A DNA stretch of 38,627 nucleotides from the NCBI GenBank assembly GCA_012521105.1, contig JAAYNA010000157.1, positions 1 to 38,627 of the forward strand. Reading direction: 5' to 3'. This DNA comes from Clostridiaceae bacterium (GTDB lineage: Bacteria; Bacillota; Clostridia; DSM-8532). Position numbers and translations under genes: made by a program. The notes beneath the pieces were generated by a model, which saw only the letters and a list, made by a program, of their open reading frames with translations, did no database searches and was not told where the DNA came from. The first letter of the stretch is position 1. Each line of letters begins with the position of its first letter. Positions 16,160 through 21,877 of this stretch are shown here, piece by piece.

Positions 16160-16915
16160 TCAGATCAGCATAAGTATTATATTCCGTATATTTAATGCAG
16201 CAACAACCGTACCTACCAGAATCATCATTACCTTTGGTGTTATTTTCTTTACAAGAAATGCAGCAAAGGGAGCAGCTAACACACCGCCAACCGCAAGGCC
16301 AAGGATTATCTTCCAATATTCACTTAACCCGATAATGGTTACGAATGTTAAAGCCTGTGCAACTGTCACAAAGAATTCCGAAGCATTCACCGAACCAATT
16401 ACATATCTTGGTGTATTACCGTCTGCAACAAGAGTTGTTGTAACAACCGGCCCCCATCCGCCACCGCCTATTGCATCCAGAAAGCCTCCTATTACACCAA
16501 GAATATAAAGTTTTATGCCTTCCAGTTTTTTAGCTATTTTCTCAGAGTGTTTGCCAAAAGCCTTATAAATAATCCTTATACCCATGGCAATCAGATATAC
16601 ATTTATAATTGGCTTAATAATTGTTGTGTCAATGTTTGTCAATATAAATGCGCCTAGAATTCCCCCTACTACACCCGGGATAACCAGTGATGAAAATAAT
16701 TTTTTATCTATGTTTTTTAGCTTATAGTGGGAAATACCCGAAACAAATGTGGTAAAAACCTCTGCTGTATGTACCGATGCGCTGGCAGCGGCCGGTGGTA
16801 CGCCAATACTTAGTAAAAGACTTGTTGAACTTACACCATACGCCATTCCAATGCACCCATCAACCATTTGCGCAAGAAACCCTGCAATCATGAATAAAAA
16901 AAATGTTGTATCCAT
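16160..16915 (-). CDS. TauE/SafE family sulfite/organosulfonate exporter
   Basis: Membrane protein of 251 aa with about eight spans. Typical family features are two related halves, the first with FLAQMVDGCIGMAYGVSSTS and the second with GVIGGFLDAIGGGGWGPVVT. Members export sulfite, sulfoacetate or other sulfonates or anions. Starts at ATG 16915 after AAGGAT. It has its own promoter overlapping a perfect dyad. It lies close to the sulfate-assimilation operon and its Rrf2 regulator, which fits a sulfur-balance role (inference). Confidence 0.85.
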   Translation of the reverse strand: MDTTFFLFMIAGFLAQMVDGCIGMAYGVSSTSLLLSIGVPPAAASASVHTAEVFTTFVSGISHYKLKNIDKKLFSSLVIPGVVGGILGAFILTNIDTTIIKPIINVYLIAMGIRIIYKAFGKHSEKIAKKLEGIKLYILGVIGGFLDAIGGGGWGPVVTTTLVADGNTPRYVIGSVNASEFFVTVAQALTFVTIIGLSEYWKIILGLAVGGVLAAPFAAFLVKKITPKVMMILVGTVVAALNIRNIILMLI

Positions 16916-17105: not shown

Positions 17106-17147
17106 TAAATGCAATTAAAAATAAAGGGTATTATGGAGGAAAACCAC

Positions 17148-17845
17148 ATGGATACCATCGGAATAATTGGGGCAATGGATATTGAAACAGAATTAATATT
17201 GAATAAAATGACCGGGGTAAATGAAAAGCAATATGCAGGTTTTACCTTTTATACGGGAAAGTATAAAGACCTGGATATAGTTCTGACTTCCTGCGGCGTA
17301 GGTAAGGTAAATGCAGCAAGCTGTACCCAATTGCTTATTGACAGATTTAATGTAACAAAAATTATCAACACCGGCATTGCCGGAAGTATGAATGAAAAAG
17401 TGAAATTATGTGATATTGTTATTTCGGATAATGTTACATATCATGATGTAAGACAGTAGCAGATGAGGACATGCTTTCCCTACAAAGAGTTTTTTACTGC
17501 AAGTGAACAATTGAAGAGTTTAGCGGTTAAAGCCTGTAAAAGAACAGAGCTTCAAGGCTTTAACTATCATATTGGCAGAATTGTGACCGGTGAGGCCTTT
17601 GTCAGTGATGATGGTTTAAAGAAAGAAATCATAAATACAGTCCTTATTGTGTAGAGATGGAGGGAGCAGCCATAGGCCATGTAGCAGATATAAACGGAAT
17701 ACCTTTTATAGTAATTAGAAGTATATCCGATAATGCAGATGATAATGCTGCATTATATTACGATGAATTTGAAAGCATAGCGGCGAATAACTCTGCCATG
17801 CTGGTACTGAATATGCTTGAACTTTTAAATTCCGAAACTGCTTAA
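17148..17845 (+). pseudogene. mtnN: Broken 5'-methylthioadenosine/S-adenosylhomocysteine nucleosidase
   Basis: The intact enzyme cleaves MTA and SAH in SAM salvage. The start (MDTIGIIGAMDIETELI) follows GGAGG. Homology runs through GVGKVNAASCTQLLI and VTYHDVRQ, then a TAG at 17457-17459 interrupts where family members read a sense codon (VRQ-stop-QMRTCFPYKEFF). Further on, after GEAFVSDDGLKKEIIN, a 1-nt indel near 17638 breaks the frame; shifting it restores SPYCVEMEGAAIGHVA and the C-terminus. The catalytic Glu and Asp positions (GAMDIE, VEMEG, ISDNAD) are all still present, so inactivation is recent or reflects sequence errors. Its end overlaps the convergent Rrf2 gene by 4 nt. Confidence 0.85.
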
Positions 17846-18246
17846 ACAAATTGAGACAGAGTTAAATTCTCCAGTTTTTCAGACACAATATCGCGAATTT
17901 CCTTAAAGACTTGAAGGAGTTTCTCATTTTTTTCAATGGGGGTGTGCTCGAAATAATAAAGGCTGGCAGAACCTACCGAAGCCAACGGTCCGTCAATAAG
18001 CCTTATGATCTCGGCAAGGGTAATTTCATCGGGGCTTTTTGCCAGTTCATATCCACCCCGTGACCCCCTTATGCTTCTTACATAACCCGCACCTTTTAAC
18101 TGCAGGAATATTTGCTCCAGATATTTCTTTGGTATATTGTTTCTTTCAGATACCTCCATTATTTTTAAAAGTTCATTCTTTCCATAACACCTTGCAAGAT
18201 CTATCAAAGCCAAAAGCGCGTATTCACTTTTTCTTGATAACCGCAC
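17842..18246 (-). CDS. Rrf2-family transcriptional regulator, CymR-like
   Basis: DNA-binding protein of 134 aa of the Rrf2 family. It has an N-terminal winged helix (MRLSRKSEYALLALIDLAR), the YLEQIFLQLKGAGYVRSIRG recognition region and the GGYELAK wing. The three clustered cysteines that bind Fe-S in IscR are absent (the only Cys is in LARCYG), which fits CymR-type control by cysteine synthase/O-acetylserine rather than Fe-S sensing. GTG start with GGAGG 7 nt upstream. It sits 26 nt after cysN, so it is probably the last gene of the sulfate operon. Likely targets are that operon and the tauE operator (inference). Confidence 0.85.
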   Translation of the reverse strand: MRLSRKSEYALLALIDLARCYGKNELLKIMEVSERNNIPKKYLEQIFLQLKGAGYVRSIRGSRGGYELAKSPDEITLAEIIRLIDGPLASVGSASLYYFEHTPIEKNEKLLQVFKEIRDIVSEKLENLTLSQFV

Positions 18247-18272: not shown

Positions 18273-20087
18273 TTACAGTCTAATATGTTTTCTAACCATG
18301 CGAACACATTCTTCTATATCATTAATATTATTTATATGCATTTTTACAGGGATATCGGTGGTTTTTTCTTCACCCACCCAAATTACCGTAATTTTCTCGG
18401 GTGGTATTCCGGTACATATTACATCGTAATCATCGGCTGTAAGCTCCCTTGCAGAAATAATAAATATCATACCCGCATCAAGCATTATATGTGCAACCTC
18501 GGTTAACCTGCGAATATGCTCCTGCCTGCTCGGTGGCAGTATCTTGTGATCTATCAGATCGGCATCCACCCCGTACAAAACACTTCCCATACCAAGGTAA
18601 TACACAAGCCTTCCGTCGTTAAACAACTGTTTTTCAAGGGCTCTGCCCAGCTCTTTTCTGGGGCTTTGTCTCTCTCCGGTAATAAGTATTAAAGCAGCGC
18701 CGTGTTTATATTTCTTAGCCCGTGCCTCCGCACTGATTTCGCTTCCAATCCATTTGTAATTGCGCATCAGAACCTTATCACGGACCCAGCTGGTTTGATC
18801 CTCCAGTTCACTGATAACTATTCCGCCACCTGATATTTCATAATCATCCACAATAACAAAACGGCTTGTTTTTGCAATATCACCCGTTAAGTCAAAGGCA
18901 ATATGCCTGTCTAAGGTTAAAATGCACTCGGCCACCTCATTACGATCAACCTGTTCCTTCTTCTTGCTGACCAGGTTTGACGCATCAATCACACTTCGGA
19001 TTTCTTCAAGCTGCATACCTACCTTTGCAGTGCCAAGCTTTAAATAATAGATTTTATTCTTAACCAGAGGGTTTTTTCCCAGCCAGAACAAATTAACCAG
19101 CATCCGGCCGGTGGTCTTTGGTTTAGGCTCATTTTCAAGGCACATCATTTCCCCACGTTTTACATAAATCTGTTCAGTTACTGTAAAACCTGCAGCCCAG
19201 CCTGCTCCAATAGTTGTTGCCGGTTCCCTGTTAAAGGCTTCTATTGTTTTTATCCGTGTTCGCTTACCCGAAGGATAGAATATTACTTCATCACCAACAG
19301 ATATTTTTCCAGTTTCGATGGTTCCGGCTATAATTCTTCTGTTGTCGCCACCTTTGGTAAATTTATATACATCCTGGACAGGCATGCGGAAAGGCTTGTC
19401 TTCAGGAAGCTGTTCGCTCTTGAAGGAATCTAAAACCTCCAGAACGTTCATTCCTTTATACCAGGGCATCCTGTCCGAATGATTGGCAACATTATCCCCC
19501 TCAATTGCGCTGATTGGAATAAAGCATAAAGGCTCTACATCCACTTTCCTTAAAAAACGCCTGTATTGCCTTTCAATACGCTTAAACGGCTTTTCACTGT
19601 ATTCTATTAAATCCATTTTGTTAACAAGCACGCACACTTGCTTAATACCCAGCATCGACAGCATATAACCATGGCGCCGGGAATTTTCCTGAATTCCTTC
19701 GCTTGCATCTATTACTAACAGAGCAGCCTCAGCACGGGCTGCACCGGTAATCATATTCTTTAAAAACTCAATATGCCCCGGCGCATCAATTATAATATAG
19801 TTTCTAAGCTCTGTCTGGAAGAAACAGCGTGCTGTATCAATAGTTATGCCCTGGGCCTGTTCATCTTTTAATGCATCCAGAAGAAAAGCATATTCAAAAG
19901 GTTTTGAATTACGCCTGCAGGTTTCTTTTACCTGCTCTAATTTTCCTTCCGGTAATGAATTGGTATCGGCCAGAAGTCTTCCTATGACTGTGCTTTTCCC
20001 ATGGTCCACATGTCCCACAATTACTATATTCATATCCTGCTTATGAACTAAATCTCGTTTATCTAAGAGGATCTCGCTATTTGTCAT
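18273..20087 (-). CDS. cysN: Sulfate adenylyltransferase subunit 1 with degenerate APS-kinase-like domain
   Basis: Large GTPase subunit of ATP sulfurylase, 604 aa, making APS from sulfate and ATP together with CysD. The EF-Tu-like GTPase domain has G1 [10 protein letters not shown]3 DAPGH and G4 NKMD, followed by beta-barrel domains to about residue 440. The last 160 residues align by pattern with APS kinase (CysC), as in CysNC fusions, but the P-loop GLSGSGKST is replaced by [12 protein letters not shown] and the usual DGDNVRHGL and FISPFR blocks read [11 protein letters not shown] and IISARELT. The kinase domain is therefore probably inactive. AGGGG precedes the ATG. Co-transcribed with cysD upstream and the Rrf2 gene downstream. 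Confidence 0.92.
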
Positions 20088-20174: not shown

Positions 20175-21056
20175 TTACATGTATCCGCCTTTTCTTAGTT
20201 CCTCAAGCCCACCACCATCTTCCTTGTCCTGGGCCCTTCCCGAGCGTTCGGCAATATTCGCAAACTTCCCGGTTTTTAGCTCCTGTATAATTCCGTCCAC
20301 ATCCTTTGCATCGGATTCAACCGGGAAGGTGCAGGGCCAGCATCCAAGAGAGCGGTACCTTTTCCCCTCTCCCCGGTCGTAATACAAAGAAACGGTGGGG
20401 ATATTTTCCCGCTTTATATACTCCCATATATCAAGTTCGGTCCAATCCAGCAGCGGATGTATGCGAAGATGTGTTCCAGGCGCAAAATCGGTTTTAAACT
20501 GTCCCCAAAATTCAGGGGGCTGATCCCCTATGTCCCAGTCACTATTTCTGTCCCTGGGTGAAAAGTATCTTTCCTTTGAGCGGCTTCCTTCCTCATCTGC
20601 CCGCACCCCAACAATAACACCGGTGTATGGCTCGGTGTTATTGTCTATTTCATAAACTTTTTTTGTATGATTCAGCCTGTACCTTGGCCATTTTCCGTTC
20701 AATGTATTCTTTAACGCTTCAGTTTTCAAAAGCCTGCAGCATTCAAGGTGGGTTGCATTTCCATCGGGAAATGTAATTTTACTGTCCAATGCTTCCTTGT
20801 TTTCCCCGTAAATCATGTCCAGCCCCCACTCAAGAGCAAGCCTGTCCCTGTATTCTATCATCTCGGGTATTTTATAATGAGTATCAATATGAACAAGCGG
20901 AAAAGGTACATGACCAAAGAAGGCCTTTCTTGCCAGCCACAATAAAACCGTGCTGTCCTTGCCTATTGACCAGAGCATACACAAATTTTTGAAATTTGCA
21001 TAGGCTTCCCTAAGAATATGTATCGACTTATTTTCCAGCTTATCAAGGTGGTTCAT
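20175..21056 (-). CDS. cysD: Sulfate adenylyltransferase subunit 2
   Basis: Catalytic subunit of ATP sulfurylase, 293 aa, of the PP-loop ATP pyrophosphatase family. The PP-loop is in [19 protein letters not shown], and downstream are [15 protein letters not shown], the cysteine-containing [17 protein letters not shown] and a C-terminal GGYM. ATG start after GGGGTGATTGA. It lies 41 nt after cysQ and 87 nt before cysN. Confidence 0.95.
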
Positions 21057-21097: not shown

Positions 21098-21877
21098 TTA
21101 GATCAGTTTATTAGCAGGATGGTTAATAATATAAAACCCTTTTTCATTCAGGTTATTCACCCGGTTATATGTCATCTCGCTATCATCCATTTGCCGGAAA
21201 ATCCCTCCTGCTTCTTCAACAATACACTGCATAGCAGCCGTATCCCATTCCATTGTATAGCCAAAACGGTAATACACCTCTGCCTCTCCCCTGGCAATCA
21301 GACACCCCTTTATTGCACTTCCCACACTCAGAGTATTTTTTATACCATTTCTCTGTATTAATTGCAGAAGCTTGTCTGATTTATGGGATCTGCTCATCAT
21401 AAGGCGTATGTCCTTAGTTCTGGAAGAAACATGAATTCTCTCAATATGCCCGTCCTTTTCATAAAAGGCACCTTTCCCCTTTACGGCAAAATACAATTCA
21501 CCGGTTACGGGTATACCAATAACGCCCAGAACAGGCTTTCCCTGATAGCTTAATGCAATATTCACGGTAAACTCGCCATTTTTCTTAATAAATTCTTTTG
21601 TTCCATCCAAGGGATCTATAATAAAACACCAGTCGTTTTTAAGCCTTTCGGGATCATTTTTTGATTCTTCTGACAGTATAGCACATTCGGGGTACCTGCT
21701 CTTTAGATTTTTAACAATATAGTCATTTGCTTTTCTGTCGGCTTCGGTAATTGGCGAAAAGTCATCCTTGTAATCAACAGAAAAATCCTTTTCATATATC
21801 TCAAGAATAATCCGTCCTGCTTCTTTAGTTATTTCCTTTGCGGTTTCAATAACATCATCCAAATCCCGAAAATCCAT
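21098..21877 (-). CDS. cysQ: 3'(2'),5'-bisphosphate nucleotidase, CysQ family
   Basis: Mg-dependent phosphatase of the inositol monophosphatase superfamily, 259 aa, which removes the 3' phosphate of PAP (and PAPS). Metal-site motifs: EESKND (near residue 70), DPLDGTKEFI, and EWDTAAMQCIVEEAGG toward the end. ATG at 21877 after AGAGGGG. First gene of the sulfate operon. Its presence implies PAP or PAPS is made in this cell, although no intact APS kinase or PAPS reductase is visible in the window. Confidence 0.9.
   Translation of the reverse strand: MDFRDLDDVIETAKEITKEAGRIILEIYEKDFSVDYKDDFSPITEADRKANDYIVKNLKSRYPECAILSEESKNDPERLKNDWCFIIDPLDGTKEFIKKNGEFTVNIALSYQGKPVLGVIGIPVTGELYFAVKGKGAFYEKDGHIERIHVSSRTKDIRLMMSRSHKSDKLLQLIQRNGIKNTLSVGSAIKGCLIARGEAEVYYRFGYTMEWDTAAMQCIVEEAGGIFRQMDDSEMTYNRVNNLNEKGFYIINHPANKLI

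Follow-up and report, generated by a model that had tools for sequence, protein, structure and literature searches.

The window (i.e., the whole 38,627-nucleotide stretch of Clostridiaceae DNA analysed here) carries on its minus strand, in this order, cysQ, cysD, cysN*, an Rrf2 regulator gene and a TauE-type transporter gene. The gene that we call cysN* (18273..20087, minus strand) encodes a 604-aa CysN (the GTPase subunit of ATP sulfurylase) that ends in a degenerate APS-kinase domain. Its assignment to CysN follows from a TIGR02034 score of 344.7 bits (cut-off 336.1), from the G-protein motifs [14 protein letters not shown] and NKMD in the translation, and from the neighbouring cysD. Directly upstream, cysD (20175..21056, minus strand) encodes the catalytic ATP sulfurylase subunit and scores 355 bits against NF003587 (cut-off 195) and 242.7 bits, below the cut-off of 396.6, against TIGR02039. 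The cysQ-like gene (21098..21877, minus strand; TIGR01331, 254.1 bits against a cut-off of 228.8) encodes a 3'(2'),5'-bisphosphate nucleotidase, predicted to remove PAP. The Rrf2-family regulator gene (17842..18246, minus strand; PF02082, 112.4 bits) lies directly downstream of cysN*, and the TauE/SafE-type transporter gene (16160..16915, minus strand; PF01925, 134 bits) is a conserved neighbour. An intact CysC (218 bits) is encoded elsewhere in the same genome and is not linked to cysN*. On the plus strand, positions 17109-17840 contain what is probably a disrupted gene of the nucleoside phosphorylase family: its front part (PF01048, 95.6 bits for 17109-17459) runs into a stop, past which related-looking sequence continues in pieces.

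An APS-kinase relative at the C-terminus of CysN

A preliminary description of the locus had read the last 165 aa of CysN* (aa 440-604; 18273..18768, minus strand) as an APS-kinase domain that has lost its P-loop. Pfam matched this region to PF01583 with E=8.2e-8 (32.8 bits, above the gathering threshold of 21.1), and phmmer aligned it to the Arabidopsis APS kinase 3uie with E=7.6e-9. We then compared structures using an AlphaFold2 model of the domain built from 18 sequences (pLDDT 84.0, pTM 0.79; the full-length CysN* model gave 79.6 and 0.63). APS kinases topped the Foldseek ranking (best match 6b8v, E=8.1e-9), and the best VIA-align matches were all APS kinases (4fxp, Z 19.6 over 158 residues). 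The model also matched M. tuberculosis CysC (4rfv, Z 17.8) and the allosteric domain of a fungal ATP sulfurylase (1m8p, Z 15.7 over 141 residues), and PSTK, gluconate kinase and similar P-loop folds ranked under the APS kinases with Z 14 or less. The C-terminal domain of CysN* is a true APS-kinase relative in fold and in sequence, and structure prediction, which had been proposed as a check, confirms its relation to CysC. Its length and layout, described earlier as those of APS kinase, fit only in part: the Pfam match covers no more than positions 3-81 of the 152 in the profile, and the lid, with its Tyr, Phe and Gly landmarks, has been deleted. The domain also scores 37.3 bits against the 138.7 of TIGR00455, the curated APS-kinase equivalog.

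Active-site loss, conservation and origin of the domain

We aligned 36 distinct pseudo domains (L043 and L018, which are the same contig, were counted once) with 82 intact APS kinases, taking residue roles and numbering from sections of a report on M. tuberculosis CysC structures (PMC4373884). In the window domain, the P-loop GxxGxGK(S/T) is reduced to the remnant [10 protein letters not shown] (aa 471-480; 18648..18677, minus strand), with Lys478 at the position of the Mg-binding Ser, and LGMGSVLYG (aa 498-506; 18570..18596, minus strand) replaces LDGDNVRHG. The LDGD motif is gone (LGMGSVL), with Gly501 in place of catalytic Asp480 and Leu504 in place of APS-binding Arg483, and the lid, which in APS kinases carries a catalytic Lys and the Phe that stacks on adenine, is gapped here as in all 36 domains. 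Across the alignment, Mg-binding Ser457 is lost in 36/36 (Lys in 28 and Arg in one, i.e., a basic residue in 29/36), and Asp478, Asp480, Arg483 and Pro525 are each absent from every domain. Position 456 is Lys in 15/36 and Arg in 17/36, including the window. The loss thus extends, as had been noted for blocks other than the P-loop, to nearly every catalytic residue checked. An alignment of clostridial homologues had been suggested to see whether the altered P-loop is conserved; the loss of the P-loop Ser is shared by all 36 domains, and the pseudo domain is not a clostridial peculiarity.

Other residues persist. Helix alpha-2 ([17 protein letters not shown], aa 521-537; 18477..18527, minus strand) is the most APS-kinase-like part, with equivalents of Glu499, Arg502, Arg503 and Glu506 in 33, 35, 31 and 36 of the 36 domains. 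Gly450 is kept in 35, the N-terminal Arg435 in 36, and Arg497, which binds the sulfate of APS, in 28. Gly572 and Tyr460 are near-invariant residues new to the pseudo domains, and Arg530 and Pro525, which adjoin helix alpha-3, are lost. Judging from the alignment, substrate-binding residues went while several fold and helix residues stayed, and we infer that the pseudo domain lacks APS-kinase activity.

Adding 11 domains from a phylum sample gave an extended set of 47, in which Ser457, Arg483, Pro525 and the Tyr/Phe/Gly landmarks of the lid are lost in 47/47 and Asp480 in 46/47; Lys or Arg occupies position 456 in 41/47. Five of the added members (L145-L149, from G290, G223, G300, G326 and G418) have also lost most of the alpha-2 motif and represent a third, more decayed form of the pseudo domain. 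A probable separate CysC, encoded by an open frame of ~205 aa that matches the profile, lies ~5 kb off in G290, G223, G326 and G418.

Selection on the domain was estimated from dN/dS (Nei-Gojobori), which was 0.042-0.114 in the 9 of 13 pairs giving a value, the other pairs being saturated. For two pairs whose dS was near 0.5, the ratio was 0.055 and 0.100 in the domain against 0.023 and 0.039 in the CysN core, and the remaining measured pairs had dS >1. The domain value exceeded that of the core in all eight pairs in which both were measurable. By these estimates the domain evolves faster than the CysN core, yet far from neutrally. A recent pseudogene is ruled out by these ratios together with a clade that spans several phyla. 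The cysN* of G140 (L021; G140:C19:7275-10733) is split by one in-frame TGA, which is either a sequencing error or a sign of a broken gene, and that of G326 (L148) has one TGA inside its match.

Among 197 relatives searched, 27 matched a domain query; 20 of these have a dead domain by reading, the rest being accounted for by intact CysC, active fusions and a chance hit. A scan of genome contigs returned at least 80 loci and at least 17 dead domains (L034-L050), many from MAGs, and the dead domains listed come from Halanaerobium, Vulcanibacillus, Anaerolineaceae, Gemmatimonadaceae, Omnitrophota, Dependentiae, Phycisphaerae, Verrucomicrobia, Hydrogenedentes and others. The 36 dead domains, from at least eight named phyla, form a single clade (100/100, with a bootstrap not fully settled) in a 106-domain tree, from which 12 near-copies among the intact domains had been excluded beforehand. 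Within the phylum sample, 12/299 genomes have a dead domain by reading, a count that includes the window's genome and leaves aside a weak match in G335 that was not read. The domain is thus neither specifically clostridial nor recent, and the named loci in other phyla rule out a clostridial-only curiosity. The earlier view of a retained pseudo-kinase therefore stands, given the lost active-site residues, the purifying selection and the presence across phyla.

A rapidly built tree of the CysN core comprised 53 rows, with 5 of the 36 filtered out and 7 near-copies excluded. Four CysN proteins with active fused kinases (L025, L027, L029 and L052) fall within the dead-domain subfamily in this tree, separate from Bacteroidota CysN and from that of most Pseudomonadota. 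Their placement tentatively suggests, on long branches, that these proteins later exchanged the dead domain for an active kinase.

Two pathway contexts

Type I genomes (26, the window's included; group support modest at 88/76) have sulfation loci, and intact CysC is present in 24/26; the two without it are G193, which is 77% complete, and the Omnitrophota MAG of L038. Their loci have the gene order cysC-cysD-cysN* or cysD-cysN*-cysC, frequently together with cysQ or a sulfotransferase gene (names partly assigned by eye), and cysC is unlinked to cysN* in the window's genome and in G001. A PF13469 sulfotransferase occurs in 22/26 type I genomes and in 11/11 members of the window's family that carry cysN*. 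Clear CysH is found in one of the 26 (G199); G205 gives a second PF01507 hit, and several others give weak PF01507 hits. A PF13469 sulfotransferase gene lies at G000:C48:26647-27387 (L134:7498-8607, minus strand); the single sulfotransferase genes of G000 and G001 sit among housekeeping genes (named by eye) and give no clue to the sulfated substrate. In a Gemmatimonadaceae MAG, an intact CysC is contained in a 424-aa open frame (L036:5340-6611, plus strand) between cysN* and cysD.

Type II genomes (10, in one subclade with support 96/80) have cysH-cysD-cysN operons, with CysH beside CysD in 10/10. The CysH proteins tested, from six of these ten, pass TIGR02055 (APS reductase) and carry a double-Cys and CxxC motif, which we take to be an iron-sulfur motif. 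Our search detected no APS kinase in 7/10 type II genomes, the same seven that lack PF13469; MAG incompleteness may mimic the absence of CysC, and G056, G115 and G140 are at least 99% complete. The other three have both an APS kinase and PF13469 (G208 by weak sulfotransferase matches). Type I and type II differ in CysC (Fisher, p=4e-4) and in CysH (p=4e-8, or 3e-7 with G205 counted as CysH), with p values that are not corrected for relatedness.

Possible functions of the dead domain

Sections of reports on fungal ATP sulfurylase (PMC3779200, PMC2275785, PMC13213808) describe an APS-kinase domain that is regulatory and not catalytic, and sections of the last describe kinase-domain dimers in the fungal and Entamoeba enzymes. 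In P. chrysogenum, too, an ATP sulfurylase ends in an inactive APS-kinase fold (1i2d/1m8p); however, the window domain is fused to the CysN GTPase of CysD-CysN, which is unrelated to the Sat-type fungal enzyme. The fungal domain keeps its lid and its PAPS-binding arginines, whereas the lid is deleted in the window domain. The CysN-CysC/NodQ proteins of M. tuberculosis and rhizobia share the order of a CysN core followed by an APS-kinase fold, but their kinase is active and the window domain lacks active-site residues; the window protein scores 426 against the cut-off of 715 for bifunctional CysN-CysC (NF004035). The APS kinases of Thiobacillus denitrificans and Entamoeba histolytica, as covered in sections of PMC13213808, also keep one sulfate-activation partner as an inactive domain, although in mirror image (i.e., the sulfurylase is dead and the kinase active). 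Those sections propose that the dead sulfurylase domain stabilises the hexamer in T. denitrificans, and that it supports the oligomer and modulates activity in E. histolytica. In the open-access PubMed Central literature, we found no dead APS-kinase domain described on CysN. Dead APS-kinase domains that regulate fungal ATP sulfurylase are known, and the same solution appears here on an unrelated, GTPase-driven bacterial enzyme in at least eight named phyla. This bears on annotation as well. An earlier survey, according to sections of PMC1780047, told NodQ from CysN by the mere presence of PF01583; such a rule would wrongly credit dead-domain organisms with a bifunctional enzyme, and would predict PAPS synthesis in the 7/10 type II genomes in which no intact APS kinase was found.

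Because selection has kept the dead domain in many unrelated bacteria, it is probably a structural or regulatory part and not an enzyme. We tentatively favor, with a probability of roughly 45%, a history in which an APS-kinase domain, now dead, became fused to CysN in an ancient ancestor and was kept as a non-enzymatic scaffold of CysD-CysN. The GTPase/ATP-sulfurylase core of CysD-CysN makes APS, and the dead domain would be unable either to place MgATP (its P-loop Ser being replaced, mostly by Lys) or to phosphorylate APS (having no Asp480 and no lid). The fold and helix alpha-2 are retained; alpha-2 forms the dimer with alpha-3 in the active M. tuberculosis enzyme, and the dead domain may pair with itself, or with free CysC in type I, in a way that would fix the assembly of the CysD-CysN unit. 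In the window's organism, PAPS is made by the separate intact CysC, presumably for a sulfotransferase. The APS kinases at the top of both fold rankings, the lost active-site residues, the low dN/dS, the single clade, the kept alpha-2 residues and the separate intact CysC of this genome and of 24/26 type I genomes all argue for a scaffold. Furthermore, the domain persists in the 7/10 type II genomes with no detectable CysC, so a structural role fits better than a PAPS-linked one. Several observations point the other way: Pro525 and Arg530 are lost next to alpha-3, the helix that contributes the second half of the interface; a single conserved interface is hard to reconcile with the missing Arg530 and with the decayed alpha-2 of L145-L149; and dS is saturated in most pairs, with domain dN/dS above that of the core. 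The structures modelled were monomers, and pairing is putative.

The preliminary description had also raised regulation of ATP sulfurylase and binding of APS or PAPS. In an allosteric sensor like that of filamentous fungi, APS (or PAPS, in organisms that make it) would bind in the reshaped site and throttle CysD-CysN. Fungal ATP sulfurylase, as described in sections of PMC3779200 and PMC13213808, provides a direct precedent, and we regard this reading as unlikely but deserving of serious attention. The retention of Arg497 in 28/36 domains, the basic residue in place of the Mg-binding Ser and the new Gly572 and Tyr460 are consistent with a sensor, but the elements that clamp APS in active enzymes (Arg483, Phe492, Asp480 and the entire lid, Phe included) have disappeared. 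A possible APS sensor would need a rebuilt site. In 7/10 type II genomes, our search detected no APS kinase that could supply PAPS. We rejected PAPS sensing as the general function, since type II members persist in such genomes, many organisms of this type seem to lack PAPS synthesis, and the canonical APS/PAPS site (Arg483, Phe492 and the lid Phe) has been lost. More doubtful is a docking platform in which the dead domain would pair with free intact CysC in type I and pass APS to it, as an in trans version of the CysN-CysC fusion. An intact cysC within the locus of many type I members and the four active fusions inside the pseudo-domain subfamily of the core tree fit such docking, but cysC is unlinked in the window's genome and type II genomes often lack CysC.

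It is improbable, in our estimate, that the dead-domain family acts as an exchange hub of CysD-CysN, in which the old kinase dimer face would dock free CysC in sulfation organisms, the domain would serve CysH in APS-reducing ones, APS would be handed on directly, and whichever domain is attached at the C-terminus (a dead kinase, an active kinase or, in a single genome, an Rrf2 regulator) would set the fate of APS or the control of the operon. We consider it very unlikely that the domain is a decaying, functionless relic of a CysN-CysC fusion: its catalytic residues are lost, it evolves faster than the core and some members are far more decayed, but dN/dS is well below 1, frames are open in nearly all members and one clade spans many phyla, with the dead domain also read in 12/299 sampled genomes of the phylum. 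Finally, the basic residue at position 456 in 41/47 domains could be taken for an APS kinase with an unusual active site, but this is almost certainly not the case, as none of the 47 has the Mg ligand, the phosphosulfate Arg or the lid, 46 lack the catalytic Asp, and 24/26 type I genomes keep a normal CysC.

A role for the domain through Rrf2 was considered as well. An Rrf2 gene adjoins cysN* in 8/8 loci examined from the window's family and in L035; L044 and L046 have one a few kilobases upstream, and no Rrf2 gene occurs in the covered stretch of the remaining loci examined. An Rrf2 partnership was therefore rejected as a general role. In G111, a CysN (L117:3615-5378, minus strand) is fused to an Rrf2 domain (PF02082, 95.5 bits, residues 443-573) in the place of the dead kinase. 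This fusion, together with the separate Rrf2 gene after the window's cysN*, hints at a functional link between CysN and Rrf2. The CysN proteins of L114, L115, L116 and L118 (G194, G078, G089 and G182) end in a different extension, ~130 aa long, which is no APS kinase; Pfam gave no match for the two extensions tested (L114 and L118). The C-terminus of CysN seems to be a place where various extra domains can be attached.
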